Below, piece after piece: positions 1,103 through 36,820 of a stretch of 39,246 nucleotides of DNA; positions within the stretch are counted from its first letter, which is position 1; every line of letters begins with the position of its first letter. A model generated the notes under the pieces. It made no database searches, was not told where the DNA came from, and was given only the letters and a program-made list of their open reading frames with translations. The stretch is from the NCBI GenBank assembly GCA_028706415.1, contig JAQWBK010000002.1, positions 1 through 39,246 on the forward strand, in the 5' to 3' direction. The position numbers were made by a program, and so were the translations under genes. This stretch comes from Oscillospiraceae bacterium. GTDB lineage: Bacteria; Bacillota; Clostridia; Oscillospirales; Acutalibacteraceae.

Positions 1103-1226
1103 TTACTCACCTTTATAATATTTACCGAATATATTCACATGTAATAAACTTGCTGAATTTATATTATATCATAATATTATCGCTAAACATAGGGTAAGAA
1201 TTGGTTATACTATCAATAACATACTT

Positions 1227-1943: not shown

Positions 1944-1966
1944 TTCAAATTCTCCTCTTTACGCTT

Positions 1967-4561: not shown

Positions 4562-4654
4562 TATCAGACACAAGCCCTCCAAAGTATTTACTAAAAGACT
4601 CAATTAATCATGTATGTTCATCCTGCATAAAATTTAACCTCAGGAAGTGCGTTA

Positions 4655-14498: not shown

Positions 14499-16778
14499 AT
14501 GATAATACGGCACAAGCATAATATAAAAGCATTTATCTACACAATAACAATTACCTGTATATTGCTATTTGGTGGACCTGTAGGATGTTCATCAAACACT
14601 GATAAGTCGATACCGTTCGAAAAAAAGAGTTTTGAAAAGGGCAGTATTACAAAATCAACCGAAACAATGGTGGTTGAAACAGAATCGCTGAGAATGAATT
14701 TCAATCCAGTCAAATGCACATTTGATCTTATTGTAAAGGATACAGAGGCTATATGGTCATCAAATCCGCCGGATGAATGGAAGGATCCCTATGCTGCCAG
14801 CATCACAAAAACCGATTTAAAATCTCAGTTACTTGTTACATATAAAATCGACAATACCAAGATGAGAAATACAAACAGCGTAGTTTCCTCCGTAAATAAA
14901 AAAACCTTTACCGTAGCAAGACTGAAAAATGGGATACGTGTAGATTACACATTTAGGGAAGGCTTTGTAATTCCGGTAATGTACGAACTCTTTGATGACA
15001 GCATGGAGGTAAGTATACTATTTTCAGAAATTGAGGAAACCACCGAACAACAAATAAATGAAATAAAGCTGCTTCCTTATTTCGGCGCTGCGTCCGAGTC
15101 CGAAAAAGGCTATTTATTTGTGCCGGACGGCAGCGGTGCAATTATTGATTTTAACAATAAGAAAACGGATTATCCGGTCTATGACAAGATGGTATACGGG
15201 AATGATCAGACCTTACCAAGCGACATTGTGACAACACGTGCGGAGCAGATTCATTTTCCCGTTTTCGGCATGAAAAAGGAAAACGGTGCCTTTGTTGCCG
15301 TCATTGAGGATGGGGATGGTTTTGCAAGAATTCAAGCCTCGGTGGCAGGGAAAAATGCAGCCTTCAATACCGTATACTCAACCGCGATTTATCGTGCCGT
15401 AGAAAGGCTGAATGTTCTGAACGGCAGTCTTGGCACTGCGGGGGCTGTCCTATATTCTGCGGAGGATCCCGTGCGCACAAACTCATACCGTGTAAGGTAT
15501 ACCTTTCTTTCAGGCCAGGATTCAAGCATCGGGGGGATGGCGAAATCCTATCGTAACCGGCTTATAGAGCAGAAAGCATTAACAGCATCAGAGAAGGAAA
15601 CCGCTTTATATATAGATATATATGGCGGAGTAAAAAAGGCGAAATCATTTCTTGGCATCCGATATGATGGAGGGGAGTCGCTTACCTCCTTTTCACAGAC
15701 CCGAGATTTGCTGGACGATTTGCGAAGAGAAGGGGCAGATTCACTGGTTGTGGGATTCCGCAATTTAAGCCGTGACTCGTATAAAGGCAAGCCGGAAACA
15801 TCATTTAAGCCACTTTCAGAGCTGGGCGGCAAAAAGGGTTTGGACAAGCTTCTTGATTATGTAAAGGAAAATGAAATTCCGTTTTATGCATATTCCGATT
15901 TTTATTCCTTTGAAAAAAGCGGGAACTCATTGTCTAAATATTTTAATGTTTGCAAAACCCTTGACCTTGGTGCTGCACAGGTCTACTACAAAAAGCTAAA
16001 CACGAATATTCAGAATAAAACGCGGGACCCATTCTATCTATTATACCCCACAGGCTATCAAAAAGCGGTAAGCAATATGATAAAATCTGCAGATAATAAC
16101 AAGATAGATGCAATTCATTTGGGGGATATCTCCAGTAGGTTGGCAGGGGATTATTCGCGGGGCGGGCTTCAGCGTGACCAGGCAATCAACGCTCTTAAAA
16201 GTGCGTTGGATATGGCAGCCGATAAATCACTTATGCTTAAATCTCCGAACAGCTATCTTCTTGAATATGCAGACTATATTACGGATCTTCCTATGACCTC
16301 CGAAAAGAATCTGTTGTTTGATCGAGATGTTCCGTTTTTACAAATGGTTCTGAAAGGCAGCCTTTCCTACGCTGCATATTCTGCAAATCTGAATAGCACA
16401 TCGGACGACCTGTTTTTGCATCAGGTGGAATCAATGAGCCAGATTCATTATTCATTTATATCGGATAATCCGTCTGATCTTTTAAATACCGACATGGTGG
16501 ATTTGTACGGTTTGTCTCTTGCGCAAAGGGAACTGGCAGTAGCGCAATATAAAGCAATGTTGGCCATTTCACAAACAGTAAATAATGCGTATATTGATGA
16601 ATATTCCGGTGATGGAAGTGTATCCGAGATAAAATACAGCAATGGAGTAACCATATATGTAAACTTTACAAATGAGAATGTTGAATTCGGTGAAATAAGC
16701 ATTCCATCCAGAGGATATGCGGTAGTACGCAATGGCAAAATGTTGTTGTCCGGGAATGAGGTTAGGCAAAATGATTAA
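14499..16778 (+). CDS. DUF5696-like lipoprotein, putative TIM-barrel protein
   Basis: 759 aa; lipobox-like FGGPVGC; secreted; C-terminal half alternates alpha/beta like a TIM barrel (ALYIDIYGGVKKAKSFLGIRYDGGESLTSFSQTRDLLDDLRREGADSLVVGFRN...); architecture and gene neighbourhood recalled for DUF5696 proteins. Confidence 0.68.
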   Translation: MIIRHKHNIKAFIYTITITCILLFGGPVGCSSNTDKSIPFEKKSFEKGSITKSTETMVVETESLRMNFNPVKCTFDLIVKDTEAIWSSNPPDEWKDPYAASITKTDLKSQLLVTYKIDNTKMRNTNSVVSSVNKKTFTVARLKNGIRVDYTFREGFVIPVMYELFDDSMEVSILFSEIEETTEQQINEIKLLPYFGAASESEKGYLFVPDGSGAIIDFNNKKTDYPVYDKMVYGNDQTLPSDIVTTRAEQIHFPVFGMKKENGAFVAVIEDGDGFARIQASVAGKNAAFNTVYSTAIYRAVERLNVLNGSLGTAGAVLYSAEDPVRTNSYRVRYTFLSGQDSSIGGMAKSYRNRLIEQKALTASEKETALYIDIYGGVKKAKSFLGIRYDGGESLTSFSQTRDLLDDLRREGADSLVVGFRNLSRDSYKGKPETSFKPLSELGGKKGLDKLLDYVKENEIPFYAYSDFYSFEKSGNSLSKYFNVCKTLDLGAAQVYYKKLNTNIQNKTRDPFYLLYPTGYQKAVSNMIKSADNNKIDAIHLGDISSRLAGDYSRGGLQRDQAINALKSALDMAADKSLMLKSPNSYLLEYADYITDLPMTSEKNLLFDRDVPFLQMVLKGSLSYAAYSANLNSTSDDLFLHQVESMSQIHYSFISDNPSDLLNTDMVDLYGLSLAQRELAVAQYKAMLAISQTVNNAYIDEYSGDGSVSEIKYSNGVTIYVNFTNENVEFGEISIPSRGYAVVRNGKMLLSGNEVRQND

Positions 16779-17673
16779 AAGCACAAATCGGAAACCGAGG
16801 CCAATGTCCCTAGAGCGAAAAACCAAATGGTTTGGATGGGTGTTTATGGCCCCGTGGCTTCTGGGGCTTATCTACTTTTTCATTATTCCCTTTGCCTCCT
16901 CTTTCATATATTCAATTAACTTTGTCACAATAGGTGAAACCGGTCTGGATTACGAGTTTTTGGGTCTCAAAAACTATGCTTACATGTTGCAGGAGGATGC
17001 GAGTTTTGTAAGAGATGTGGTGGGAGAGGTAAAAAATGTATTGACCCAAGTTCCCATCATTCTTATTTATTCAATATTTGTTGCTCTTTTGCTGAACCAG
17101 AAATTCCCCGGTCGTTTATTTGCCCGCTCTTTATTTTTTATTCCGGTAATAATCGCATCCGGTCTGGTGATTCAGATTATCCAAAAAGATTTATTTGCGA
17201 ACACCAATATGAGGGCGGATGAAAGTTCGATATTCCAGATTGGGCTGATAAGCGAAATTCTGGGGAATCTAAACTTTGCCTCTGATTTGATAAATATAAT
17301 AACCACTGCGGTTGCTCAAATATTCGATTTGTCCTGGAAATCCGGGGTACAAATATTACTGTTCCTCAGCGCTCTGCAAAGAATTCCGCCAACATATTAT
17401 GAAGTGGCATCGGTAGAAGGTGCCAATGCTTGGGATGCATTTTGGAAAATAACATTCCCGGTTCTTTCACCGTCATGTTTATTAGTAGGTGTTTATACAA
17501 TCGTTGATTCGTTCACCAGTCAAACTAATCCAGTTATGAAAAATATCATCACGCGTTTTAATGAAGTCAAATATGGATATGCATCTGCATCTGCAATTAT
17601 ATATTTTATTGTTATCGGAGCATTTCTCGGGGCTGTTATGCTCCTTGCAAGAAAAAGGGTTCATTACACATAA
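16771..17673 (+). CDS. Carbohydrate ABC transporter permease (MalF-type), second system
   Basis: ATG at 16771 overlaps the stop of the preceding gene; TM segments; EAA-loop YEVASVEGANAWDAFWKITFPVLSP. Confidence 0.92.
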   Translation: MIKSTNRKPRPMSLERKTKWFGWVFMAPWLLGLIYFFIIPFASSFIYSINFVTIGETGLDYEFLGLKNYAYMLQEDASFVRDVVGEVKNVLTQVPIILIYSIFVALLLNQKFPGRLFARSLFFIPVIIASGLVIQIIQKDLFANTNMRADESSIFQIGLISEILGNLNFASDLINIITTAVAQIFDLSWKSGVQILLFLSALQRIPPTYYEVASVEGANAWDAFWKITFPVLSPSCLLVGVYTIVDSFTSQTNPVMKNIITRFNEVKYGYASASAIIYFIVIGAFLGAVMLLARKRVHYT

Positions 17674-17723
17674 AATCAACAACAAGCAGCGACACTATGA
17701 ATATTAAATGTCGAGGAGTTATT

Positions 17724-18713
17724 ATGGATTTGCAAAAAGCTCTACAAAATAAATCAAAATTGCATATAAGCACCCATAACAAACAACATATCGGAAATTT
17801 TCTCTTTTTTCTGTTTCGGACGGCGTTTTTTATTGGCATGAGCTATGTATTGCTTTTTCCGCTTATTGTAATGCTATCCCGTGCTCTTCGCCCATACAGC
17901 GATATGTACAACCCCAGCATTGTATGGATCCCCAGCAAGATTACATTTGAAAATTTCAGTTATGCACTCAAGGCACTGGGCGGTTGGAGCTCTATTTATA
18001 AAACATTACGTATTGTGTTTGTTAGTACGCTGCTGACCATGGTTTCCTGCTCTATGGCAGGTTATGGGCTTGCCCGATATCGCATTAAAGCGGTGCCGTT
18101 TCTGACAGCCATTGCCGTTTTCACCTTTATTGTTCCGATTCAGACCTATGTAATTCCTATATTTATACAATTTCGGTTTTTTGATTTTTTTGGAATCGGT
18201 TCTTTGATAGGACTGTTTACCGGCGAAAAGCTGGTAGTCAATCTCACCAGTTCAGAAGCCATATACTATATACTCAACATTCTCGGTAGTGGCACTCGTT
18301 CGGGACTGTTTATCCTGGTGTTCATGCAGACATTTAAAGGGATACCTCAGGAGCTGGAGGATGCATCACGCGTTGATGGCTCGGGGGAATTCAGAACATT
18401 TTTTCAAATAATGCTGCCAAATGCGGTTCCCGGCTTTATTGTAACCTTTGTAATGTCGATGGTTTGGCAGTGGAACGATTATTTCTTCCCATCAGTGGTA
18501 TACCGTCAGGACTTTTTCCTATCCAAAAACATGATGCAACTTCGGGTGCTCGCGACCAAAGCCCTTGGTCTCAATTCATATGCGACCAATCTTTCAGAAA
18601 CAGTGGTTATGTTCGCTGGTTGTTTTATTTATATTGCACCGCTGCTGTTAATGTATATGGTTGCACAAAGATACTTTTTGCAAAGTGTCGAAAGAACGGG
18701 AATTACAGGATGA
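17724..18713 (+). CDS. Carbohydrate ABC transporter permease (MalG-type), second system
   Basis: GAGGAG RBS before ATG 17724; TM segments; EAA-loop LEDASRVDGSGEFRTFFQIMLPNAVPG. Confidence 0.92.
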   Translation: MDLQKALQNKSKLHISTHNKQHIGNFLFFLFRTAFFIGMSYVLLFPLIVMLSRALRPYSDMYNPSIVWIPSKITFENFSYALKALGGWSSIYKTLRIVFVSTLLTMVSCSMAGYGLARYRIKAVPFLTAIAVFTFIVPIQTYVIPIFIQFRFFDFFGIGSLIGLFTGEKLVVNLTSSEAIYYILNILGSGTRSGLFILVFMQTFKGIPQELEDASRVDGSGEFRTFFQIMLPNAVPGFIVTFVMSMVWQWNDYFFPSVVYRQDFFLSKNMMQLRVLATKALGLNSYATNLSETVVMFAGCFIYIAPLLLMYMVAQRYFLQSVERTGITG

Positions 18714-19621: not shown

Positions 19622-22600
19622 ATGAATAAGAAAAAGAGTCTGGCGTTAATAGCGGCAATAGTTTTGCTTTTTACCATGGTTATGACGACGTCATTTATTG
19701 TGGCGGTTGCGGCAAACTACACGGTAGAGACTAATATTGATCAGGCTTATCTAACAGGCATGGGTTCGAATATATTAAAGGGAAAAACACTGCTAGAAGG
19801 AAGCGACTGGTCTGAGGCTAAATCCAGCAACTATAACGGCACCTATTATTTAACAGACGGGGTTCTTGTTCATAAAAAGGATCTCGGGAACCTGTACTAT
19901 GGCAATTTAGGCGTGCTGTTTTATAACAGCATAAATAAAATGTTTGTATACGATTTAGGCGCAAACTATACAGCAACCAAAGCCTTGGTTGCCGGCATCT
20001 ATGATGCTGCCGAGAACTATTGTATAAATGAATACAAGCTTTTTTTGTCTACGGACAAAAAAACACTGTTTACGGATGAGAGCCTGATTGTGCATTACAC
20101 TAATAACCAGTGGGTTGCAGGGGATGAAGTGAATTCACCCGGTGCGGCACAGGCATTTCTGTTCAATCAAGACACCCAACCAAGCGGACGCTATTTCGGT
20201 ATTCAATTAGTAGTCCCCAACAGCAGAACCATAGTTGACAAGACTGCTTACCTTAACCAGTTTGGTCTGTACGGCATGCCCGCGGATTATACGGTAAATA
20301 ACGAGGTCCAGCAAAGCGATGTTACCGCGTTGGGCGGCAACATCTTGAAGAATAACAGTAAATTGTATAATGCGGCAGATCCCGCAGCATGGGTAGAAAT
20401 TACTAGTTCTAGTAATTATAACGGAGTACCTTTTTTGAATGACGGAGTTCTGCGTCATTCCCAAAGCGGTGGCACCCTATATCGCGGTGAGGAAGGCTTG
20501 ATTTTCTGGGCCGGTTCAGGGAAGAAATATGCATACGATATGGAAATTTCATACTCGGCGGAGGATATACTGGTCGCAGGCGGCTATGATATGACCGGCG
20601 GCGGGGCGGATTACAGCATATCGGAATATAAGGTATTTTTATCGAATAACAAGGTTGATTTATTCAGTGATGCAAATTGCGTTATATACTACATAAACTC
20701 TGAAAAGGCTCCTGCACAATGGTTTGAGTACAATGACCTAGCTCAAAAGCCCACCGGACGATATTTCGGTGTTGAAATAATAAAAAGCAATGAAACCTCA
20801 ACCAATGTATACCTTAACCAGTTTGGCGTGTACGGATATCCGGCGGGATATACGGTGGTTGACGGTCTAAAGCAGAATACCACGATTGATGAGTTTGGAC
20901 AAAAGCTGGGTTCGAATATTTTAAGCAAGAAAACATTAGAGGTATATTCAGATGGTACCTATTCGGCCCCAACATACGGCAGCGATGGTTATTCATCGGT
21001 ATCAAGGTACACGGATAACACCGTCTATTCTGCCCACACTACTTTTTATGAAGGCAACGGAAAGATGCTTGCATACGACATGCAGGATACCTACCAAATC
21101 AGCAAGTTGATGGTTGCCGGCATTTACGACACTGCGGTAAATAAATGCATCGCGAAATATAAAATCTTCATATCAGATTCAAAGGATGCTTTATTTAATG
21201 ATGAAAATTGTGTTGTAAGTCACACAAACAACGCATGGGCGGCAGGCTCGGACAGCTTCTTGGGAGGGGCACAGGCCTTTCTGATAAATCATGACAGCTA
21301 CATTACAGGACGGTATGTTGGATTTCAGTTTGAGGATGCTTCTTGGACCGAAACCGTTGTGAGAATCAGTGAGCTGGGCGTATACGGTTCACCGGCAAAC
21401 GGCAGGTTTACGGTATCCCAAGGGGTCACTCAGCTGGAATATAACAAACAAGGTACGAATTTACTCACCGGAAAAGATATGTATAAGAATAATATTGATA
21501 CCAATGCATTCAGCCTAGTTACCAAGGATAGTACCGGCAGAGCGACTTCTGAGCTCGCCAACGACAATATTACCCAACAGCTTCGTTGGTATGATAATGC
21601 TAAAAATTATGGGACAATGCTCTATTACAACCTCGGTGATGCGTATGAAATTGAGAAGCTGGTGGTTGCGGGAATATATGATTCGGTAAACAACTATTCG
21701 CTGGCTCATTATGAGATCTACATTTCTAACAGCCTGGATACCCTCTGGAATTCTTCCAGCATGGTTATCGATTATTACAACACAGCCTATAAGCCGGGCA
21801 GCACCGGTGATCTCATGGGTGCCGTGCAATTGTTTGAATTCACTAATGGCAATCTGCCCAAAGGTCAGTATTACGGTATACATATTCCCGACTCGATGGC
21901 TCCGTTGTATCCGACAAGCCCGGCAAACTATTTTAAAGAGCTGCGTATCAGCGAGCTTGCGGTTTTTGCCAACAAAGCTAATGCGGGTTATACCGTAACC
22001 CAAAATATGACCCAAGAGGAATATGAAGCTCTTGGTAACAACATATTGAGCGGTAAAAAGCCTTACGACACGAACTGGTCGCTTATTGAATATGACAGCT
22101 CCGGTTATCGCAAGACCGAATGGCTTACAGACGGCACACTCGTGGGAGTCCCGCTTGACCTTGCGGTTGATTTCTGGAATGGTGACGGAAAAAAGCTTGC
22201 TTATGATATCGGGCATGGGGATTATATTGACAGGTTACTCGTTGGCAGCTGGTATTCACCCACCGATAATCAAACACCGGCAAATTATAAGATTTATGTT
22301 TCAAATACGCAGGAAACCCTTTGGAATACCGAGAATTGTGTAACGAATTATTATAACAACGCATGGAAGGCAAATTCCTCGGTGAATGCGGGCAGCACCC
22401 AGCTGTTTACCTATGGCGTAGCTGGGGCGGAGCTTCCATACGGACGATACATCGGCTTTGAGTTTGTGGATTGTAATGTCACCTCTGCAACGCTTCGGCT
22501 TTGGGAGATTGGCGCGTATACCATGACCGAGATTCCGGTTGCGGATAACGGTATTACCGCGATTCAAAGGGTGGCAAAGGATGGCGAGGCTTATGATGTT

Positions 22601-24361
22601 CCGGCCGGAAGCGGTTCGCTGAAGGTAGGAAATATATCAACCGGCAATCATACCCTGACGGTAACCGACCAAAATGGCGATAATCATGTATATTTTGTAG
22701 CCGATGGCACGGTTACATATCAGAGTCAGTTTACAAATTCCACCACATTCCTAGGCTCTGCTATTCGTGTGCAGAATCCGCAGGGATTGCGTTTCAAAAC
22801 CTCAATGACCAAATTGGCCAGAGATTCGGGTAAAATCATTGAGTATGGCACGGTTGTGGCAAAAAAATCGGCGCTGAACGGCAAGGAGCTGGTGGTCGAT
22901 TCACCCGATTATACAAGCATTAAAGCCGTTGCATTTAATGCCACCGACGGAACCGAAATTATCTATGGGGAAAATGAAACAACGGTAGAATATACAGTGG
23001 CTTTGTATAACATTGCCCAGAGGAACTACCGCACATATTATTCTGCAAGACCATATATGATTTGTGAGGATGCGAGTGGAAACCTATTTACAGTCTATGG
23101 TGAGACACAAACCAAGCGAATTCTTTCTGTTGCCGAACAAGCAAGCACCGAACTGGAAAAATACAGCCCGATTGTTCAGGAATATATTATGTCGATTGTA
23201 AACAACAGTGAAATAGCTACCATTTCTCAGGCATATGCAACATCCCTCAATGTGACACCGGAAATGCTGCAACAATCAGTTGTATCCGAAGGGAACAAGG
23301 CAAGAATTGCTAAGGTACTTAGAAAAGCTGCCTTGGGTGAGGATATTACCCTTGGGGTATTGGGAGGCTCAATCACTGCCGGTGCATCGGCATCTCCCGG
23401 AAGAGCATACGCTAATCGCGTAAGGGATTGGTTGCAGAATGAATTCCCGGATACCAATGTAAAATTGGTGAATGCGGGAATTGGCTCAACCACCTCTATG
23501 GTTGGGGTTCACAGAATTGAAGCCGATCTACTTAAATACGACCCCGACCTGGTTATTGTTGAATATTCGGTCAATGAATCGGATTCTCAGCTTACATTTG
23601 AAAATGTCATACGCCGTGTTATGTTGGAGGAACAGGAAATCGGGTTGATTATGCTGTTCACCATGAGGGATAACGGATGGAATAACCAGGATGCAGAGAT
23701 ACCGATTGGTACTCATTACGGTGTTCCTATGATCAGCTATCGCGATGCCATCTGGCCGGCCATTGAAGACCCGAATAATACCGATTTCGAATGGGGTACA
23801 GTCGGAGCAGACACTGTTCATCCCAATAATAAAGGTCATGAGATTATTGGTGCTCTAATCGGGGATTATCTCGCAAGGCTCTATTCCGAGATTGATACAA
23901 TCGGCACGACCGTTCCCGTATTGCCGGATGTTATGTTCACCGATATATACATGGATGCTATTCTTTATACCTCCGCAACACTTCCGAAGGATATGATCGT
24001 TTCTCTGGGAAGCATGGCGGTTAACACCAACGCTTTTCATCAGTTTAAGAATGGCTGGACGGCGACCTACGATGGCAATGCCGCCCAACCGATGGTACTT
24101 AATCTGGGGCCATGTCAGTCTGTAACCCTCCTAATCAGAAGAACGGCAAAGGCAGGTGCGGGCAAGGCTCTTGCACAGCTTGAAACACATTCAAGGCTGA
24201 TAACAAAAACATGTTCGAATGCCTACCCGGGATTGAACGCCGATTATGCCGATGCCATACAGCTTTTTACCACCGACACAGCTGAGGATATGGTTCTTAC
24301 TATTACACCTGAGCTTACAGAAGGCCAGTATTTTACTCTGCTTGGTATTATGATTGCTTAA
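19622..24361 (+). CDS. Large secreted multi-modular SGNH/GDSL hydrolase with five tandem discoidin-like repeats
   Basis: 1579 aa; signal peptide; five repeats starting xYTVxxxxxQ...GxNIL; C-terminal SGNH blocks GVLGGSITAG, VNAGIGSTTS, VEYSVNES, DTVHPNNKGHE. Confidence 0.87.
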   Translation: MNKKKSLALIAAIVLLFTMVMTTSFIVAVAANYTVETNIDQAYLTGMGSNILKGKTLLEGSDWSEAKSSNYNGTYYLTDGVLVHKKDLGNLYYGNLGVLFYNSINKMFVYDLGANYTATKALVAGIYDAAENYCINEYKLFLSTDKKTLFTDESLIVHYTNNQWVAGDEVNSPGAAQAFLFNQDTQPSGRYFGIQLVVPNSRTIVDKTAYLNQFGLYGMPADYTVNNEVQQSDVTALGGNILKNNSKLYNAADPAAWVEITSSSNYNGVPFLNDGVLRHSQSGGTLYRGEEGLIFWAGSGKKYAYDMEISYSAEDILVAGGYDMTGGGADYSISEYKVFLSNNKVDLFSDANCVIYYINSEKAPAQWFEYNDLAQKPTGRYFGVEIIKSNETSTNVYLNQFGVYGYPAGYTVVDGLKQNTTIDEFGQKLGSNILSKKTLEVYSDGTYSAPTYGSDGYSSVSRYTDNTVYSAHTTFYEGNGKMLAYDMQDTYQISKLMVAGIYDTAVNKCIAKYKIFISDSKDALFNDENCVVSHTNNAWAAGSDSFLGGAQAFLINHDSYITGRYVGFQFEDASWTETVVRISELGVYGSPANGRFTVSQGVTQLEYNKQGTNLLTGKDMYKNNIDTNAFSLVTKDSTGRATSELANDNITQQLRWYDNAKNYGTMLYYNLGDAYEIEKLVVAGIYDSVNNYSLAHYEIYISNSLDTLWNSSSMVIDYYNTAYKPGSTGDLMGAVQLFEFTNGNLPKGQYYGIHIPDSMAPLYPTSPANYFKELRISELAVFANKANAGYTVTQNMTQEEYEALGNNILSGKKPYDTNWSLIEYDSSGYRKTEWLTDGTLVGVPLDLAVDFWNGDGKKLAYDIGHGDYIDRLLVGSWYSPTDNQTPANYKIYVSNTQETLWNTENCVTNYYNNAWKANSSVNAGSTQLFTYGVAGAELPYGRYIGFEFVDCNVTSATLRLWEIGAYTMTEIPVADNGITAIQRVAKDGEAYDVPAGSGSLKVGNISTGNHTLTVTDQNGDNHVYFVADGTVTYQSQFTNSTTFLGSAIRVQNPQGLRFKTSMTKLARDSGKIIEYGTVVAKKSALNGKELVVDSPDYTSIKAVAFNATDGTEIIYGENETTVEYTVALYNIAQRNYRTYYSARPYMICEDASGNLFTVYGETQTKRILSVAEQASTELEKYSPIVQEYIMSIVNNSEIATISQAYATSLNVTPEMLQQSVVSEGNKARIAKVLRKAALGEDITLGVLGGSITAGASASPGRAYANRVRDWLQNEFPDTNVKLVNAGIGSTTSMVGVHRIEADLLKYDPDLVIVEYSVNESDSQLTFENVIRRVMLEEQEIGLIMLFTMRDNGWNNQDAEIPIGTHYGVPMISYRDAIWPAIEDPNNTDFEWGTVGADTVHPNNKGHEIIGALIGDYLARLYSEIDTIGTTVPVLPDVMFTDIYMDAILYTSATLPKDMIVSLGSMAVNTNAFHQFKNGWTATYDGNAAQPMVLNLGPCQSVTLLIRRTAKAGAGKALAQLETHSRLITKTCSNAYPGLNADYADAIQLFTTDTAEDMVLTITPELTEGQYFTLLGIMIA
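19715..22527 (+). repeat. Five tandem coding repeats (~180-195 aa each), starting near 19715, 20285, 20846, 21404 and 21986
   Basis: Shared signatures: YTV....Q....LG.NIL; LVAGIYD; YKIFIS....LF; GRYFG..; YLNQFGVYG / RISELGVYG. Confidence 0.85.
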
Positions 24362-24728: not shown

Positions 24729-24771
24729 TAGTACCAAAAATACAATTTAAAATGTGAAAGGGGTTAATCTT

Positions 24772-26910
24772 GTGAAGTACAAAAAAGTACTTGCAAACGC
24801 TTGTGTCTTATCATTGGTTTTGTGTCTTATCGTAGGTTCTATGGCATTTTCTATAATGGCGGCTACCGAATATGAATATGTAGAATCACAGTTCTTTAAC
24901 GAATCATCTCAGCAAATTTGGGATCTTTGCAAGCTAGAAGGAGCCGACACCACGGTAACGGCAGGAATTACAGATCCGACACATAAACCGGCAGGCGTTG
25001 CGTCCTCAATAAAGCTGCACTCTGCCGGGACAGCCAGTTATCCCGCTGTTTACTTCTGGAATGAGAAAAACACGGGCGGGCGTATACCTCACGGCAATCT
25101 GTTTGGAACTTCAAAAGCAATAGAGTATGAAGGTATCCGCATTTGGCTGCAAACAGATAGCACGAATTTCTATAGCAAAATTATGATTTATATCGGGGAT
25201 ATGTATACCGGATACTGGCCATCCAGTTTTTATCAGTACATGTATATTGTCCCCGAGGGCGGGCAGAACGGCTATATTGACATACCGTTTGCGAGCTTTG
25301 TCAACGGAAGCGGTGTTGCACTTCCTGTAGGCGATGTTCTGGACTTTATCACCATAAAGCTTAATGATTCGGCCAAAAAGGTGGAAACCGATGTCTATAT
25401 AGCCGACCTCAAGCTGTATCGTGAAAGTGATGTCACCACCACGTCAACAACAACTACTACGGCAACCACAACCACAGCTTCAGCTGCAACCACCACAGAT
25501 ACCACTACCTCTTCCGCCTTGGATGCAACCACAACAACTACTGCTAATACAACCACAACCGATCCTCAAGATAAGTATGAATATCTTAAATCCGATTTGT
25601 TTAACAATGCTACACAGGAGATGTGGGATAAAGTTAAATACGAAGGCACCAATACCAAGGTTACAGCCGGAATTACAGATTCTGCGCATAAACCCACAGG
25701 CGTTGCTTCCTCATTCATGTATCATACGGCGGGTACAACCAATTATCCAGGAACTTATTTCTGGGAAGAAAAAGCAGGTGGTACACGCGCACCCTTTGGA
25801 AGCTTGTTTGGAACAGCCAATGTAGCTGATTATGAGGGCATACGTTTATGGCTGCAAACCGCTGACAGTAATCAGTACAAGAAAATCATCATCTGCATTG
25901 GCACCATGAGTGGGAATAGCTACTGGCCAAGCAGTACAACAGGATTTTACACCTATACCTTAACCATTCCGGATGGTGGACTGGATGGATACTTTAACAT
26001 ACCATTCTATTCGTTTACAAACAATTTGGATGAATCAATACCGGTTGGAGATGCCCTGCATTTTGTCGCTTTCAAATACTCCGATTCTTCGATGAGAGTA
26101 TCTGACACATATTTTGCCGACCTCCAGCTGTACCGCGAAAAGGGTAATCTCCCCGACGACAATAATGACGATACCGATACCGAAGAGCCGATTATATATG
26201 AGTATTTGAGATCCGAATTGTTTAATGATTCTACCCAAGGCATGTGGGATAAGTCAAAGTATGAGGGCGAAGGCAATATCGTTACAGCAGGAATTACAGA
26301 CGCTGCGCATAAGCCTGCAGGAGTGGATTCGTCATTTAAATTCCATACAACCGGATCATCCTTTTATCCCGGAGTCTATTTTTGGGAAGAGAAGGCCGGA
26401 GGGCAGCGCGCACCTTTCGGAAATCTGTTTGGAACGGCAAAGGTCAGTGAATATGATGGCATACGGCTTTGGATACAAACAGCGGACAATAATGCGTTCA
26501 ACAAATTAATTATATACATTGGCTTTATGTCCGGTTCCACTTACTGGCCTAGCGATGCAGTAGGCTTTTATATGTGTAATGTAGTCTATCCGGCAGGAGG
26601 CCAGAACGGGTATGTAGATATCCCGTTTGAAAGCTTTAAGAACAAGCAGGAGGAGCCGATAGCGGTTGGAGACGCCCTTAACTTTATTGCATTTAAGTAT
26701 TCTGACAGCACTATGAGGGAGTCCGATACTTATTTTGCCGACCTGCAGCTTTATCGTCAAAAGGGTTCCGATTCCGGTTCGAAGTCTCCCGGAACAGGTG
26801 AAAGCAGTACATCAACCTTGTTTATTATACTGTTTGGTGCATTCATAGTTGGTACCGGCTCGTACATTTATGAAAGAAAAGTGAACAAACGCCGCAGAGC
26901 CGACAAGTAA
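24772..26910 (+). CDS. Secreted three-module (CBM-like) protein with Thr-rich linker and putative SPxTG sortase signal
   Basis: GTG start at 24772 (track uses GTG 24754); signal peptide; modules at about 24868-25428, 25573-26142 and 26194-26763; C-terminal SPGTGE + hydrophobic span + KVNKRRRADK. Confidence 0.8.
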   Translation: MKYKKVLANACVLSLVLCLIVGSMAFSIMAATEYEYVESQFFNESSQQIWDLCKLEGADTTVTAGITDPTHKPAGVASSIKLHSAGTASYPAVYFWNEKNTGGRIPHGNLFGTSKAIEYEGIRIWLQTDSTNFYSKIMIYIGDMYTGYWPSSFYQYMYIVPEGGQNGYIDIPFASFVNGSGVALPVGDVLDFITIKLNDSAKKVETDVYIADLKLYRESDVTTTSTTTTTATTTTASAATTTDTTTSSALDATTTTTANTTTTDPQDKYEYLKSDLFNNATQEMWDKVKYEGTNTKVTAGITDSAHKPTGVASSFMYHTAGTTNYPGTYFWEEKAGGTRAPFGSLFGTANVADYEGIRLWLQTADSNQYKKIIICIGTMSGNSYWPSSTTGFYTYTLTIPDGGLDGYFNIPFYSFTNNLDESIPVGDALHFVAFKYSDSSMRVSDTYFADLQLYREKGNLPDDNNDDTDTEEPIIYEYLRSELFNDSTQGMWDKSKYEGEGNIVTAGITDAAHKPAGVDSSFKFHTTGSSFYPGVYFWEEKAGGQRAPFGNLFGTAKVSEYDGIRLWIQTADNNAFNKLIIYIGFMSGSTYWPSDAVGFYMCNVVYPAGGQNGYVDIPFESFKNKQEEPIAVGDALNFIAFKYSDSTMRESDTYFADLQLYRQKGSDSGSKSPGTGESSTSTLFIILFGAFIVGTGSYIYERKVNKRRRADK
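24868..26763 (+). repeat. Three intragenic module repeats with a poly-Thr linker between 1 and 2
   Basis: Each module: YEYxxSxxFN(x)S/ATQxxWD..K.EG...TAGITD..HKPxGV.SS...YPG.YFWEEKxGG.RxPxGxLFGT...YxGIRLWLQTxD...GY.xIPF.SF.N...PVGDAL.F..xKxxDS...D.YxADLxLYRxK; poly-Thr/Ala linker 25435-25563. Confidence 0.9.
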
Positions 26911-28397: not shown

Positions 28398-29783
28398 ATG
28401 AAAAAGATAATAAACATTTTAGCTGTTTGCTTTATTATTGTTGTGATAGCAGGCTGTAATGACAAAACTCCCAGCAGCAAGGTCACCAGCAACATATCAA
28501 GTGAAAACAAAGACGGCATTGCCGCCACCGGTTCGAAATATGCCCAGGGCATTACTATGTCAAAACTTGAAAACAAAAAAATAAAAATAATGGTTAACCA
28601 AGGCATGGATTTTCTTAAAAGTATGGATTCGGAGGATGCACCGAACACAACATTAAACACCCTAAATACATGGAAAGCTACCTATGGCACCGACGCCGAG
28701 CTTGAGGTTGTAAACTGGGACGATTTCAGCACCTACCTTGCGACAGCAGCGGCTGCGGATATGATGCCGGATGTCGTTATCGGTGGACAGGTTTGGTTCC
28801 CCTCTTGGCCTGCAAAAAACCTGGTGCAGAGCCTGGATGAGTTTGATGAATACCTGGATTTGGACGATCCGATGTGGCGCAAAGATATTATGGACCAGTT
28901 TAAATGGAATGATAAACACTATGTCGCGTATGCCCAGGTGCCTGAACACTTTTATATTTGCTACAATAAAACAAAATTTGAGTTGGTGGGTGAAACCACC
29001 CCGCTGGAGCACTGGAAAAACAAGAATTGGAACTGGACACAATTTGTTAAAACGGCGAAAAGCATGTCCGACCCTGATAATGATGAGTATGGTTATACCG
29101 GCTGGAATCTTGCGGCAGGTAAAGCGATCTATCCGATGATAAAAATAGACGGTAAAAACATCACTTCAAATGCAACCTCTCAGGAAGTGGTCAGATGGTT
29201 TACAGAGCTTAATAACCTCCATAAAACCGGTACTATCCGCACCGACAATGATCGAGCAAACTTCCTGCAACTCTTCCCGGCGGGGAAGGATGCGATGATA
29301 AGCATTTCTCCGGAAGAGTATATCCGCATGAGACTCAAGCTGGATATTACCGGCGGGGATGAGTTTGAGCTTGCACCGTTCCCGATATTTGATCCGAACG
29401 GAGAAACCATGTCAAAAACCACCGTAAACATCTATGGCTTATCAATTACATCAAAAGCGCAGAATCCCGAGGGTGCGGCGGAATATATCCGTCTAAACTT
29501 CAAGATCATCAACAATATTGAAGATTCATTCGGTGAATTGGGACGCTTTGGCAAATTACTTAACAAGGATGAAAAATCAGCTATTATCGAAGCGAATAAA
29601 ACACCGGTTATGGCTAATTACCTTTCCGGTTTTGGTAAAGCATACTTATTGTTTCAGGATAATGTGGGTGAAACAATTTATTCGCCAACCAAGGAAGGCT
29701 CCATAAAGTCGCTATTAGACGCATATGACCCGTTGCTCAAAGCGGAAATAAAAGAGTTTACAGATTCCTTGACCGCAAAATAA
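28398..29783 (+). CDS. Extracellular solute-binding lipoprotein (ABC transporter, family 1)
   Basis: Lipobox VIAGC; DMMPDVVIGGQVWFPSW, KNLVQSLDEFDEYL, WNDKHYVAYAQVPEHFYICYNKTKFE: SBP fold signatures. Confidence 0.88.
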   Translation: MKKIINILAVCFIIVVIAGCNDKTPSSKVTSNISSENKDGIAATGSKYAQGITMSKLENKKIKIMVNQGMDFLKSMDSEDAPNTTLNTLNTWKATYGTDAELEVVNWDDFSTYLATAAAADMMPDVVIGGQVWFPSWPAKNLVQSLDEFDEYLDLDDPMWRKDIMDQFKWNDKHYVAYAQVPEHFYICYNKTKFELVGETTPLEHWKNKNWNWTQFVKTAKSMSDPDNDEYGYTGWNLAAGKAIYPMIKIDGKNITSNATSQEVVRWFTELNNLHKTGTIRTDNDRANFLQLFPAGKDAMISISPEEYIRMRLKLDITGGDEFELAPFPIFDPNGETMSKTTVNIYGLSITSKAQNPEGAAEYIRLNFKIINNIEDSFGELGRFGKLLNKDEKSAIIEANKTPVMANYLSGFGKAYLLFQDNVGETIYSPTKEGSIKSLLDAYDPLLKAEIKEFTDSLTAK

Positions 29784-29853: not shown

Positions 29854-32076
29854 ATGAAAATAAAGCATTTTCGATGGTTGAGCTTTGTCTTGGCGGCAGC
29901 ATTGTTATTCACCGGATGTGGTTTGGGAAAAGAGAACAGCAGCGACATTTCCACCAATTCGTCGGTAAAATCTTCACAAACCACCACGGTACCCACTAAC
30001 AGCTCAGAAATTATTATTGACACACCGGATATTAGTAGTGAAGAGGTGAGTGGGAATAAGGAAAAGGGTAAATTCCCGCTGTTTTCGAATCAGATCGATT
30101 ACTCTAAAGGAGAAAATATTCCTCAAGAAGAAGAGTATCTGAGTTATCTTGCAATGCTAAAGTTTAGGCATGAATTCAAGGACATGATTAACCATAAATC
30201 AGAAGTCGCTGCAGTCCGATTGGTTAAATTAGGCGTGTTTGACAAGACCAAAAATTTTTATCCGGATAAAACATTAACGGTTATCGAATTTTTTAAATAT
30301 TTATTTATAACAGCCGGATTGGATATAAAGAACAAGGATGACGCTGCTTTAATTGAATTGGCAAAAAGCTCTAAGCTGATTGAGGATGATGATTTCAAAG
30401 ATTTCAATCATGAGCTTACCAACCAAGAGCTTGCATATTTGGTCGATAAGGCGGTTGCTGACCGCTCCAACACCGGGCAATTTGCAATGATGATCAGCGA
30501 TTTCAGCAGCGTTTCAGATAAAATGAAGAGAAGCGTACTGCAGGTGGTTGGTCTTGGTATTCTCGAGTGTAACGGTAAATTTCAGCCAAAGAAGGCAACA
30601 ACCAGGGCGGTTGTGGCGGATGCTTTATACAGGCTGGTCAATACAGGTTATCGTGTAGTCCTCCCTTATGAATTGGGTGAAAGCTATAATGAGGATACAG
30701 ATATCCTTTTAGTAAAATCCGAATATATAGAGAATCCGGGCGGAATACAGCTTGGTCTTTCATCGGGTTATAATAAACAGGATATTACATTTGATTTATT
30801 TGGCAAGCGCCCCATCGACCGTGTTGAGTTTTATAAATGGAGAACCATCGAGACCAAAAAAGGGAAATACAACTTTGGGACATTTTACAATGATCTGGAG
30901 GCTCATAAGCTGGGGAGTACCGTTATTTCCTGTGTGGATATCAGTGCCAATTTGAACTGGAATCCCGATTTTGCAATGAGCAATATTCCCGAGTTTTATG
31001 AGCAGGATATTACAAATAAAGCAACCCGTACAGCCGCAAAGCAATTTCTTTATTCTTTTGTACAGGAAATGATGAAGGCGGTTTATGGCGATGTTATTTT
31101 GTCAATTGATTATGAGCTTGACTGGCAGCAAAGATTGTCGGGAGTTTCTGAAGCTCACAGAAGCCGTGCGGCTATATTTGCGGACTGGTATGTTGAAGCT
31201 TGCAATGTCGCAAGAGAAGCCGCCAAAGCAGTGGGTGCGGCAGATCGTCTTAAGCTGATGGTCATTTATAACAATGTCACGGATCATCATAAGCTTGGTA
31301 TCAAGGAAAATGAATGGATGAAAAAACTGGGGCAAGCATCCGATTATATCGGGATTGATAGCTATCAGTTCCCTCAGGATAAAAGTGACCCATCAATAAC
31401 TCTGCAAAACATCCGTTTCCTTATAAATAACTATTCGTACGGTAAACCGGTCATGATGGTGGAGAACGGACTTGTTGCGAAATGGGATGAGACGGAAAAG
31501 AATAAGACGACGGGTTTATCCACCCTTCAAGAACAGGCTAAATATTTTCAAAATCTGTTTCGAGAATTCCAGTTTGCGCTGGAAAGAGGAGATTTCATAA
31601 ATAAGAATTTATCCGGTTTCCTCATATGGCAGCTCATGGATACAACCGAAGTCGGAGCACTCGGACTTCTCGACATCAAAGGAATCGAAAAACCATCTGT
31701 TAAAACAGTGCAGGAAGGTTTTAAATCCATAGAAAAGCAGAGACAGTTTAACCCATCTGTCCTAACCAAAGTTACGGATGCTACATACGGGGCGGATATT
31801 AAGGTTGAGAGCGGAACAACTTATGAGAAGCTTACCTATATAACACGCAACTGGAATGGAAAAGAGAATGGGACCTTCCGCATTAAGCTGAAAAACCCGG
31901 GTACAGTTTTTATAACCGTCAACGGTGACAACCATTATGTAATTGACCGTATGGCAGATATCCATGAAATCCCTATTAAGGACGCCCTTAAAAAGGGAAA
32001 TAATGTTATTGACATTTATTTTGGCTCGGAGAAAACACCATTTGAACAGTCAGTTTTAAAGGTATTGCTGCATTGA
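29854..32076 (+). CDS. SLH-like domain lipoprotein with TIM-barrel (clan GH-A-like) putative glycosidase
   Basis: Lipobox FTGC; two SLH-like units (AAVRLVKLGVFDKTKNFYPDKTLTVIEFFKYLF; VLQVVGLGILECNGKFQPKKATTRAVVADALYRLVN); DRVEFYKWRTIETKKGKYNF, SIDYELDWQQ, KPVMMVENGL. Confidence 0.78.
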   Translation: MKIKHFRWLSFVLAAALLFTGCGLGKENSSDISTNSSVKSSQTTTVPTNSSEIIIDTPDISSEEVSGNKEKGKFPLFSNQIDYSKGENIPQEEEYLSYLAMLKFRHEFKDMINHKSEVAAVRLVKLGVFDKTKNFYPDKTLTVIEFFKYLFITAGLDIKNKDDAALIELAKSSKLIEDDDFKDFNHELTNQELAYLVDKAVADRSNTGQFAMMISDFSSVSDKMKRSVLQVVGLGILECNGKFQPKKATTRAVVADALYRLVNTGYRVVLPYELGESYNEDTDILLVKSEYIENPGGIQLGLSSGYNKQDITFDLFGKRPIDRVEFYKWRTIETKKGKYNFGTFYNDLEAHKLGSTVISCVDISANLNWNPDFAMSNIPEFYEQDITNKATRTAAKQFLYSFVQEMMKAVYGDVILSIDYELDWQQRLSGVSEAHRSRAAIFADWYVEACNVAREAAKAVGAADRLKLMVIYNNVTDHHKLGIKENEWMKKLGQASDYIGIDSYQFPQDKSDPSITLQNIRFLINNYSYGKPVMMVENGLVAKWDETEKNKTTGLSTLQEQAKYFQNLFREFQFALERGDFINKNLSGFLIWQLMDTTEVGALGLLDIKGIEKPSVKTVQEGFKSIEKQRQFNPSVLTKVTDATYGADIKVESGTTYEKLTYITRNWNGKENGTFRIKLKNPGTVFITVNGDNHYVIDRMADIHEIPIKDALKKGNNVIDIYFGSEKTPFEQSVLKVLLH

Positions 32077-32091
32077 AAAAATAACCATTAA

Positions 32092-32139
32092 ACATACAAG
32101 GTTGGGGTGGACATATGCATCCATCCCAACCTTGTATGT
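32092..32139. repeat. Long perfect hairpin (15-bp perfect stem)
   Basis: ACATACAAGGTTGGG (32092-32106) vs CCCAACCTTGTATGT (32125-32139); stem extends inward. Could act as a terminator though no clear T-tract follows. Confidence 0.75.
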
Positions 32140-32159
32140 CAGAGCGACAACTACTAATA

Positions 32160-32257
32160 CCAATTTCAATTAGAAAGACGACAAGATAAAATGCTTAACA
32201 AAAACTATATACGCAAGTTTTTGCTGACATTTTGCCTTTCTTTCTAATTTGGATTGG
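32160..32257. repeat. Inverted-repeat (MITE-like) element B
   Basis: CCAATTTCAATTAGAAAG (32160-32177) vs CTTTCTAATTTGGATTGG (32240-32257), 15/18 complementary. Confidence 0.55.
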
Positions 32258-32270
32258 CGAAATAGAATTA

Positions 32271-32376
32271 ATACTAATCTCAATAATAAAAGCCGATAAA
32301 ATGGAGTGATGCGTTCTTTAAAGAAGAACGCGACTTGAGCGACAATTTTATCGATCCTTTTATTTGAGATTAGTAT
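32271..32376. repeat. Inverted-repeat (MITE-like) element A
   Basis: Terminal ATACTAATCTCAA (32271-32283) exactly complementary to TTGAGATTAGTAT (32364-32376); arms continue as AATAAAAG..GATAAAAT vs ATTTTATC..CTTTTAT; central GCGTTCTT-TAAAG-AAGAACGC stem. Confidence 0.7.
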
Positions 32377-32401
32377 AACAGTGAATACAGGGAGGAATAC
32401 C

Positions 32402-34396
32402 ATGTTTACAAATCATATAGACTACAGCCGTGGTGGAGACTTACCAAAGTTTGAAGCATATCTCAACTATAATTTGTATGTGAACCAGCGGCATGAATAT
32501 CAGGATATGCGGGGTAATGACGCCGAGGTGGCGGCTGTCAGATTGGCTGAAAAAGGGATAATTAAAAAAACCAGTTGTTTTCGTCCCAACGACCCGGCAA
32601 CTGCAACCGAATTTCTTCTCGGAATACTCAAGCTGAAAGGACTCGCTGCCCGGGAGCTTGAAGCAAACAAGGTTGTCCAATTGGCCACACTTTGTGGTTT
32701 GGTGGATGAGGGAATGTTTGATAAGCCCGGCTTGCACCTACTTACAATGGAAGAACTTGCTGTTATCATAGACCGCGCCCTTGAGAAATTAGAAAATGTT
32801 AATCAATATGCCATGATGCTGGCGGATTATTCGGAAATTGCGGATGATAAAAGGGAAAGCGTATTGCAAGCCATCGCACACGGAGTGTTGGAGTGCTCCG
32901 GTGTATTCCACCCAAAGGAGTACGCTTCAAGGGCGAATGCCGCCAATGCCCTTTATCGGCTTGCCAATCCCGGGGCAAGGGTCATCTTACCCTATGATAT
33001 TGGTAACGGGTATAGGGAAGATACGGATGCCTATCTTGTAAAATCGTCATATAAGCAGAATCCCGGGGGCATTCAACTTGGTACTTGGTCAAGGTATAAC
33101 CATCAGGATCAAACCTTTAAGCATTTTGGCAAGCGCCCGATTGACAGGGTGGATTTTTATAAATGGGTAAATATCGAAAAAGAAAAAGGCGTCTATACAA
33201 TGCCTTCATTCTTCAATGATAAAAAAGCGCACAAATTTGCAAATACCATTGTAACCTGTCTTGATTTAACGGCAAATCTTGTATGGAACGAGAGGTTTTC
33301 TAAAAGCAATATTCCGGAGTTCTACGAACAGGATATCACAAATCCGGAAACCCGTGCCGCAGCTGGAAAAATGCTTTATACCCTGGTGCAGGAGTTGATG
33401 AAGGCGGTAAAGGGCGATGTAATTTTTACATTTGACTATGAGTTGGATTGGCAACAGATGTTTGAGGTGGTTTGTGATGATACCTTCAAGCGCATGGAGA
33501 TTTGGGCAGATTGGTATGTGGAAGCTTGCGGCATTGCACGTCAGGCAGCAAAGTCGGTTGGCGCCGCAGATCGCTTTAAAATAATAATAATATATAATAA
33601 TATTACAGAAGTCTGCAAGCTGGGCGTTAAATATAACGAGTGGCGGTTAAAATGTGCCGCAGTATCAGATTTCGTGGGGATCGACAGCTACAATTACTTT
33701 CCAGCCGACCGTACCGATCCGGCGGCGACCATTCAAAACGCTCGCTTTTTAATTAACAACTATTCCGGTGGTAAGCCGGTCATGATGATCGAAAATGGTA
33801 CCAGAGGCAATTCCGACACAATGGATGAGTTTTTGGGTATAACAACGCTTGAAGTACAAAAGAGATATTACGAAAATCTGTTTCGGGAATTTCGTTTTGA
33901 ATTGGAAAAGGGCAGGTTTCTCAACCACAATCTCGCCGGGTATCTTTTCTGGGATCTGATAGATGGTGCCGAGCAGGGAGAGTTCGGTGTGCTGGACTAT
34001 TCCGGGAAAGAGAAGCCGGCAGCCCGAGCAATTCGTGGCGGAATTCGATTACTGGAAAAGCAAAAGCAATTTAATCCGTCGTTACTTATTTGCACCCAAC
34101 CTGCCGGAGATAAGCCAACGATTGCGGTTGAAAGCGGCTGTACTTATGAGAAGCTTACATATGTAACTAAAAGCCTGCAAGGTAAGAAAACGCTGAAAAT
34201 TGAATTGGAAGATCCCGGAACGGTGCTTATTTCTATTAATAACACGGTTAATCTGTCAAGCAGTCAGATGCAGACAACCCACATATTTAGTCTGAGCGAG
34301 GGTATTGATAAAAGGTTTAATGTTATCGATGTCTACTTTGGCGCTGAGCAGATACCCATGAATCAGAAAGTTTTGCTGTTTGAGCTGAGCGATTAG
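32402..34396 (+). CDS. Paralogous SLH-like + TIM-barrel putative glycosidase lacking a signal peptide
   Basis: GGGAGGAA RBS before ATG 32402; protein starts directly with MFTNHIDYSRGGDLPKFEAYLNY, collinear with the mature part of its neighbours; TFDYELDWQQ and KPVMMIENG conserved. Confidence 0.8.
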   Translation: MFTNHIDYSRGGDLPKFEAYLNYNLYVNQRHEYQDMRGNDAEVAAVRLAEKGIIKKTSCFRPNDPATATEFLLGILKLKGLAARELEANKVVQLATLCGLVDEGMFDKPGLHLLTMEELAVIIDRALEKLENVNQYAMMLADYSEIADDKRESVLQAIAHGVLECSGVFHPKEYASRANAANALYRLANPGARVILPYDIGNGYREDTDAYLVKSSYKQNPGGIQLGTWSRYNHQDQTFKHFGKRPIDRVDFYKWVNIEKEKGVYTMPSFFNDKKAHKFANTIVTCLDLTANLVWNERFSKSNIPEFYEQDITNPETRAAAGKMLYTLVQELMKAVKGDVIFTFDYELDWQQMFEVVCDDTFKRMEIWADWYVEACGIARQAAKSVGAADRFKIIIIYNNITEVCKLGVKYNEWRLKCAAVSDFVGIDSYNYFPADRTDPAATIQNARFLINNYSGGKPVMMIENGTRGNSDTMDEFLGITTLEVQKRYYENLFREFRFELEKGRFLNHNLAGYLFWDLIDGAEQGEFGVLDYSGKEKPAARAIRGGIRLLEKQKQFNPSLLICTQPAGDKPTIAVESGCTYEKLTYVTKSLQGKKTLKIELEDPGTVLISINNTVNLSSSQMQTTHIFSLSEGIDKRFNVIDVYFGAEQIPMNQKVLLFELSD

Positions 34397-34420
34397 TATA
34401 AAATATCGCAAGGGATTATA

Positions 34421-34455
34421 GGTTGAAAGAAATTCTTCTTTCAACCGGGTTTTGT
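34421..34455 (+). terminator. Probable rho-independent terminator
   Basis: GGTTGAAAGAA (34421-34431) / TTCTTTCAACC (34436-34446), 4-nt loop, followed by GGGTTTTGTG. Confidence 0.55.
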
Positions 34456-34540
34456 GCTCTTCTGCTGTAAATCGTGGCAGAATCTTTGGCGGCGCCGAAA
34501 TCGCACAACTCCCCAACGGCTGAAAGGAATGGAGCTTTCT

Positions 34541-36820
34541 ATGAATAATAATGCTAAAAGGTGTTTGGTGATTGTTCTATCTATGATACTTTTGTTTGCA
34601 GCATGCCACGCCGGAGAGCAGGTATCCGATACCGATTCTTTCTCCTCCAAAACCCCTAATACCGTAAACACCTCGGTCAATTCAGGAATTTCTACTTCAA
34701 CTTTTTATATGGATGAATCAACTGCATCATCCGGCAGTACAGGTGGTTCAAGTGGTATAGATGTAAGCACAAGCCGGTCGGTGACAGGCACCGGAATCAA
34801 TACAAACCGAGGAACAGCAGATTTCAGGCAGTTTTCAAACACTATTGACTATACCGGCGGCGGTAAGAGCAAAAAAGGCGAGGACTATTTAGATTACAAG
34901 AAATATGCAGCCGGTCGCCATGAGTTTAAGGATATGATAGGGCACGAATCAGAGGTTGCGGCGGTGCGGCTGACCGATATGGGAGTTTTCCCAAAAACAA
35001 CGAATTTCGGGCCATCCGGTTCGGTTACAGTCGTAAATTTTATAAGGTATTTGTTCGCAGCCGCCAATATTACCAAGGGTTCGGCCACAGACAGCCAACT
35101 CATAAAGCTGGCAGAGAGCAACAAGCTTATTGAAAAAGGTATTATAGGCGACTACAACATCAATATTACCAATGAACAGCTGGCGTATATTATCGACAGG
35201 GCAGTGGCCGACCGGGATAATGTCAGCCAGTATTCCATGATGATAAAGGATTTAAGCAGTATTGACAGCCGCTTAAAGCAGGGAGTATTGCAAGTGGTCG
35301 GCTTGGGCATAATCGAGTGCTCAAACGGGTTGTTTCAGCCTAAAGCCGCCGCTAAAAAATCTGTTGTTGCGGATGCATTATACCGCCTTGTAAATACCGG
35401 AGCCAGGGTCATAACACCATACGATCTCGGGGAACTGTATAAGGACAACAAAAATTCATACCTTGTAAAATCATCATATAAGCAAAACCCCGGCGGCATA
35501 CAGTTGGGGTTCTATTCCAATTATAATTTTCAGGACATGACCTTTACCACTTTTGGTAAAAGGGCGGTTGACAGGGTTGAGTTTTACAAGTGGACAGCCA
35601 TGGAAACCTCAAAAGGCAATTATAATTTCAAGACTTTCGGAAATGATCTGGCAGCTCATAAAATGGGAAACACCGTTATATCCACAATTGATATTAGTGC
35701 AAATACTACTTGGAATTCCCAGTTTGGAGCAAGCAATATTCCATCGTTTTATCCTCAGGACATTACTAACAGCATCACGCGCGCCGCTGCAAAAAAGTTT
35801 TTATATGCGTTTGTGCAGTCCATGTTGAAAGCAGTTCACGGCGATTATATTCTCGCAATAGATTACGAGCTTGACTGGCAGCAGGCGCTTTGGAATACCG
35901 AAGCCGGAATCAGGCGAGCAAAATTATTTACAGAATGGTATGAGGAGGCATGTTCGGTTGCCAGAGACGCGGCAAGAGATATCGGCGCCAGCGATCGACT
36001 AAATATTATTGTTATCTACAATAATATTACATCGCTTCATTTGCGAGGAGCAAATAAAAACAGTTGGATGCTAAGGCTTGCGGCTGCGTCGGATTATGTT
36101 GGTATCGACAGCTATCAATTTTATGACGATAAAACCGACCCGTCTTATACATTGCAGAATATCCGCTTTTTAATTAATAACTATTCTCTGAAAAAGCCGG
36201 TGATTATGTGCGAAAACGGGTTGGACGGTATTAAAAATCAAACCGATTCTGTGACCGGACTTTCATCTCTTCAGGTGCAGGCAAACTACTACAGGAACTT
36301 ATTCCGAGAGTTTCGCTTTGCTTTAGAAAAGGGGGATTTTCTCAACAAAGACTTGAGCGGGTATCTTGTCTGGGAGCTTAAAGATAAAAATATCACCAGC
36401 GGGAAAGGAATAAAGGATTATAAAGGGGGCGACAAACCTGCCGTGCTGACCGTCAAGGAAGGGATAAAATCTATAGAGAAGCAAAAGCAATTTAATCCCT
36501 CGATATTGAATTCGGTCAGGGATGCTACTAGCGGTGCAGACATAGCCGTAAACAGCGGGGCGGCTTATGATAAGCTAACCTATATTACTCGTAACCACCC
36601 AAGCTCAAATGGGGGATCCCTTAATATCAGGCTTAAAAAGCCCGGCACAGTGTTCATTACAGTGAACGGCGAGGTTCATTATGTCAGCAAAACAATGAGC
36701 AGTTCACATTCCATATATATCTCTAAGGGTCTAGAAAGTGGATTCAATGTAATTGATATATATTTTGGATCTGAAAAAACGCCATTCACTCAACGAGTCG
36801 AATCAGTATCGTTGATATAA
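34541..36820 (+). CDS. SLH-like domain lipoprotein with TIM-barrel putative glycosidase (third paralogue)
   Basis: ATG 34541 with GGAG RBS; lipobox FAAC; Ser/Thr linker; same architecture; AIDYELDWQQ, KPVIMCENGL. Confidence 0.8.
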   Translation: MNNNAKRCLVIVLSMILLFAACHAGEQVSDTDSFSSKTPNTVNTSVNSGISTSTFYMDESTASSGSTGGSSGIDVSTSRSVTGTGINTNRGTADFRQFSNTIDYTGGGKSKKGEDYLDYKKYAAGRHEFKDMIGHESEVAAVRLTDMGVFPKTTNFGPSGSVTVVNFIRYLFAAANITKGSATDSQLIKLAESNKLIEKGIIGDYNINITNEQLAYIIDRAVADRDNVSQYSMMIKDLSSIDSRLKQGVLQVVGLGIIECSNGLFQPKAAAKKSVVADALYRLVNTGARVITPYDLGELYKDNKNSYLVKSSYKQNPGGIQLGFYSNYNFQDMTFTTFGKRAVDRVEFYKWTAMETSKGNYNFKTFGNDLAAHKMGNTVISTIDISANTTWNSQFGASNIPSFYPQDITNSITRAAAKKFLYAFVQSMLKAVHGDYILAIDYELDWQQALWNTEAGIRRAKLFTEWYEEACSVARDAARDIGASDRLNIIVIYNNITSLHLRGANKNSWMLRLAAASDYVGIDSYQFYDDKTDPSYTLQNIRFLINNYSLKKPVIMCENGLDGIKNQTDSVTGLSSLQVQANYYRNLFREFRFALEKGDFLNKDLSGYLVWELKDKNITSGKGIKDYKGGDKPAVLTVKEGIKSIEKQKQFNPSILNSVRDATSGADIAVNSGAAYDKLTYITRNHPSSNGGSLNIRLKKPGTVFITVNGEVHYVSKTMSSSHSIYISKGLESGFNVIDIYFGSEKTPFTQRVESVSLI

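Follow-up and report, generated by a model that had tools for sequence, protein, structure and literature searches.

The stretch of DNA analyzed in this work (the window, 39,246 nucleotides) belongs to a MAG of 1.56 Mb, 79% complete, and contains three intact, collinear ORFs, all on the plus strand, here named P1, P2 and P3. P1 (29854-32076) and P3 (34541-36820) are of the lipoprotein type, with signals LLFTGC and LLFAAC, respectively. P1 is 740 aa long from the ATG at 29854, with an RBS-like aaaggaag; its residues are counted from 29809, within a 755-aa ORF, and those of P3 from 34454, the ATG at 34541 being its likely start. P2 (32402-34396) carries no signal peptide and is predicted to be cytosolic: the protein opens directly with MFTNHIDYSRG at an ATG (32402) placed after a good ribosome-binding site, ggagg, and the only in-frame start upstream, a GTG at 32381, would not add a signal peptide.

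Pairwise identities of 48-57%, far beyond chance, bear out the initial annotation of three tandem paralogues. All three share the same domain order, consisting of an N-terminal segment, an SLH-like region, a barrel and a C-terminal beta domain. The motifs originally described were largely recovered: DYELDWQQ and (M/I)M(V/I/C)ENG are present in all three proteins, and the C-terminal PGTV...FNVIDVYFG motif is found as (F/N)NVID(I/V)YFG. The N-terminal segment is likewise common to all, its proposed FSNxIDYSxG consensus being only approximate, as it reads FTNHIDYSRG in P2 and FSNTIDYTGG in P3. The same three genes, all intact, are present in a near-identical locus from a separate assembly (L004), with 3 mismatches in 10,999 bases, which makes it unlikely that misassembly in a single bin produced the array.

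Three inverted repeats lie in the gap between P1 and P2 (32092-32376), including a 32-nt pair, 78% complementary and 42 nt apart, which ends just upstream of P2; they could correspond to a MITE-like element or to a regulatory hairpin.

Relatives and genomic context

Two more full-length homologues, bringing the family to five members, were found, both in a Clostridia MAG from water-deer caecum (G959). One (at L005) is predicted to be secreted and lies inside a conserved ABC-transporter/GDSL-esterase locus. The other (at L033/L035; L035:10453-12381), 642 aa long, has its own ribosome-binding site, lacks a signal peptide and is predicted to be cytosolic; it carries the variant DYEVDWEM, and among its neighbors are a GH3-like gene and genes of the aromatic-amino-acid pathway, with no ABC transporter or esterase cassette like that at L005. 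A division of the members into secreted and cytosolic branches was considered and dropped, being unsupported in the tree (bootstrap 36-66).

The family seems to be rare. Nearly 1,300 genome searches, covering the family, the order, the phylum and the relatives of G959, some genomes being drawn more than once, produced no further full-length match; nothing was found in the phages searched, and only SLH regions in the plasmids searched. Many weak genome matches to the full-length profile are confined to roughly its first 150 positions, corresponding to the signal peptide and the SLH-like start, or to SLH-like positions, and were ignored. Two weak matches to the barrel profile proved to be unrelated proteins, a GH2-like enzyme (L026) and a periplasmic-binding protein (L029). 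When genome contigs were scanned with two conserved peptides, only L004 and L005 matched; since members whose motifs have changed would escape such a scan, rarity is stated with lower confidence.

Gene order around the array is conserved in the secreted water-deer homologue. A sugar-ABC-type solute-binding lipoprotein (28398-29783, plus strand) adjoins P1 and is syntenic, with 49% identity to its water-deer counterpart; two ABC permeases (16732-18713, plus strand) share 61% and 67% identity with their counterparts upstream of the L005 homologue. A 1579-aa GDSL esterase with an F5/8 type C domain (19622-24361, plus strand) and a membrane-anchored protein with three repeats (24754-26910, plus strand; 32% identity), possibly glycan-binding, are syntenic as well. 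Permeases, a small protein, the esterase, the three-repeat protein, the lipoprotein and the P-family genes are thus common to both lineages. The window locus additionally contains GH2, DUF5696, Yip1 and GH1 proteins, and the L005 locus GH20, GH3 and a phosphotransferase-type kinase. The GH1 gene, just downstream of P3 (36850-38220, plus strand), encodes an ordinary beta-glucosidase (Pfam E=3.9e-140; TIGR03356 above cut-off). Taken as a whole, the locus reads as one for the use of a glycan, whose esterified nature is suggested by the presence of the GDSL genes.

Other features of the region deserve mention in their own right. The three-repeat proteins (24754-26910 in the window and L005:2800-5106) end in a C-terminal membrane anchor, match no Pfam family and are neighbors of the esterase in both lineages; they may represent a new glycan-binding module. 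A full-length DUF5696 protein (14499-16778, E 2e-152) has the orientation of the transporter genes; DUF5696 was not mentioned in the literature searched. A 937-aa protein (7673-10486) features a solute-binding domain at residues 579-835, following more than 500 residues mostly without assignment, with a weak Golvesin_C match. Finally, a minus-strand cassette (323-4603), encoding an IclR regulator, an RraA-like aldolase, a short-chain dehydrogenase, a UxuA-like mannonate dehydratase and an SMP-30 lactonase, looks like one for uronate or aldonate catabolism.

The SLH-like region and the C-terminal domain

The SLH-like region of P1 (residues 120-278; 30166-30642, plus strand) appears to comprise about three units. 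Pfam SLH (PF00395) matches it just under the cut-off (E=0.001, 19.4 bits, as compared to 20.8); no member exceeds the cut-off, and outside P1 the model gives no match at all. A tblastn match to an S-layer-homology protein (E=1e-6) was also obtained. Weak as the sequence matches are, the fold predicted for this region in the P2 model is similar to that of the SLH domain of Bacillus anthracis Sap, 3pyw (Foldseek, TMt 0.60), although local pLDDT ranges from about 33 to 83. Since this match extends over 173 alignment columns of a target of 178 residues, three units seem to be present rather than the two initially proposed. The two members devoid of a signal peptide retain the SLH-like units, and anchoring to the wall cannot therefore be their sole role.

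The C-terminal domain (31759-32073 in P1, plus strand), about 100 residues long, is predicted by the models to be all-beta and jelly-roll-like; in the P2 model it weakly matches CBM36 (1w0n) and the RetS sensor.

The barrel and its putative catalytic residues

Between these two regions, about 350 residues (30706-31758 in P1, 33032-34081 in P2 and 35459-36502 in P3, all on the plus strand) are expected to form the barrel. No Pfam or NCBIfam model matched this part of any member at a limit of E 10, the GH1 (PF00232) and GH113 (PF22612) models included. A search of PDB sequences with the five-member barrel profile gave only four matches, all of GH1 type (E 0.07-0.29) and all located at the ENG nucleophile.

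The same profile was compared by hhalign with GH profiles built from fetched genes, each comparison being accompanied by 30 column-shuffled controls. Scores exceeded the shuffled maxima for GH1 (94.6%, 64 vs 34), GH113 (86%, 49 vs 23) and GH42 (33%, 38 vs 21), and also, by less, for GH26 (5.6%, 29.5 vs 23), and did not for GH39. With a smaller GH113 profile, limited to five clear members, the probability was 35-47%, and all 40 shuffles scored lower. The aligned part comprises strands 6 to 8 only; the first half of the barrel aligned significantly with no GH profile, the GH42 score (25.2) being close to its shuffled maximum (24.2). Profile-profile comparison thus places the barrel in clan GH-A, as judged from these three strands.

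The two AlphaFold models, obtained with four sequences, are poor (mean pLDDT 52-54). Both still show beta/alpha alternation, seen in the better one as strands 4-8 with helices between them; the first half of the barrel is poorly modelled, and its fold is putative. Foldseek matches include GH10, GH26, GH53, GH51 and GH35, with barrel-wide TM-scores mostly below 0.4. The best match, to the inverting sialidase family GH156, has an rmsd of 17-20 A on these poor models, and was taken as a hint only.

The strand-7 nucleophile initially proposed within KPV(I/M)M-ENG finds clear correspondence in these comparisons. E552 of P1 (MMVENG; 31462-31464, plus strand) aligns with the nucleophiles of GH1, GH42 and GH113, is invariant in the five members and corresponds to E463 in P2 (33791-33793) and E587 in P3 (36212-36214); its assignment as the nucleophile is well supported at the level of sequence comparison.

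Assignment of the acid/base to E436 (DYELDW; 31114-31116, plus strand; E346 in P2, 33440-33442, and E472 in P3, 35867-35869) is plausible, and is based on position and spacing. In both models, poor as they are, a strand is predicted to end just before D-Y-E (residues 429-432 in P1, 339-343 in P2), followed by strands 5 and 6 and by a strand ending at the ENG glutamate, so that the DYE glutamate would directly follow the strand lying three before it. Besides E552, E436 is the only invariant glutamate at a predicted strand end. The two residues are separated by 115-121 positions within the family, a spacing which equals that of GH39 (117-118) and falls between those of GH26/GH113 (80-99 in GH113) and of GH42 (155-159) and GH1 (187-196). 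The acid/base glutamate initially proposed after strand 4 therefore fits predicted secondary structure and spacing, its register being fixed by no profile alignment.

In all five members the residue preceding this glutamate, within the motif D-Y-E-L/V-D-W, is a tyrosine, where clan GH-A enzymes usually have an asparagine. The initial annotation regarded the missing asparagine as an unusual catalytic-site signature, which was overstated in that such a lack is not unique within clan GH-A: the fetched sequences of GH26 have a histidine there (RPLHE) and those of GH113 a cysteine (IGCE). Both are beta-mannanase families and members of clan GH-A (PMC9032380). The replacement is thus unusual within the clan, not unprecedented. 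In GH164, the equivalent Asn-159 touches O2 of the sugar (PMC7105311).

Likeness to individual families is partial in every case. With GH1 the proteins share the D..G...Y of strands 6-8, the ENG nucleophile and the strand-8 W, but they lack the TxNEP acid/base motif and carry the additional SLH-like and C-terminal domains. GH113 shares the strand-7 KPxxxxE-G, the subsequent EQxxxYxxxF-like helix and the strand-8 W, the register of IGCEL and IDYEL at strand 4 being matched by eye alone. GH26 (PF02156) resembles the family in its non-Asn residue before the acid/base and in its SENG/TENG nucleophile, but the profile score is weak and no Pfam match is found. In GH42 (PF02449), nucleophile and strand-6 D-x-Y are aligned, and a W..iE..G.Y.F segment after strand 2 is shared, whereas its SNE motif has no counterpart here.

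Overall, these proteins are probably retaining beta-glycosidases of a new clan GH-A family, as yet without a model in Pfam or NCBIfam, an assignment derived from sequence. The divergent or undescribed GH family originally suggested is supported in part, and was mostly a step in the right direction: the barrel is GH-like and divergent, free of Pfam and NCBIfam assignments and of solid PDB sequence matches. That they form a remote branch of an existing family, whether GH1, GH113 or GH42 or some recent CAZy family that Pfam and NCBIfam lack, would account for the profile similarity to GH1 and GH113, but seems unlikely, given that no barrel matches at E 10, that the GH1 acid/base motif is absent and that similarity is not seen over the full length. 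It is quite improbable that the barrel, at least in some paralogues, merely binds glycans: loss of the conserved asparagine and the tandem arrangement, which allows some copies to lose activity, would be compatible with this, but both glutamates and the surrounding residues are unchanged in all five members, even at identities as low as about 40%. Very little credence can be given to a substrate-assisted, GH18-like enzyme acting through D-x-E (D434, E436), with E552 not serving as nucleophile: IDYE does resemble the DxE motif, a feature of clan GH-K, and the homologous locus does contain GH20 and sugar-kinase-like genes, but the GH18 profile stays below its shuffles (20 vs a maximum of 24), and the invariant E552 aligns with GH-A nucleophiles.

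A possible mechanism and its implications

Should the proteins be retaining enzymes of clan GH-A, the standard two-step mechanism can be proposed, in which E552, at the end of strand 7, would attack the anomeric carbon, and E436, at the end of strand 4, would first protonate the leaving group and then activate water. With tyrosine in place of asparagine before E436, the 2-hydroxyl in subsite -1 would lose its usual contact, pointing to a sugar that is not simply gluco-configured. As lipoproteins, P1 and P3 would be located outside the membrane, next to the GDSL esterases, trimming a decorated, probably acetylated glycan, the fragments of which may enter through the neighboring ABC transporter; inside the cell, degradation would be carried on by P2 and the GH1 enzyme.

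If the assignment is confirmed, clan GH-A, itself a large group of glycosidases, would gain one more family, in which a residue at a position that shapes sugar recognition is changed. The SLH-like units of members devoid of a signal peptide would call into question the rule by which an SLH module stands for surface anchoring, and the transporter-linked locus would be marked as one for a glycan used by gut bacteria.
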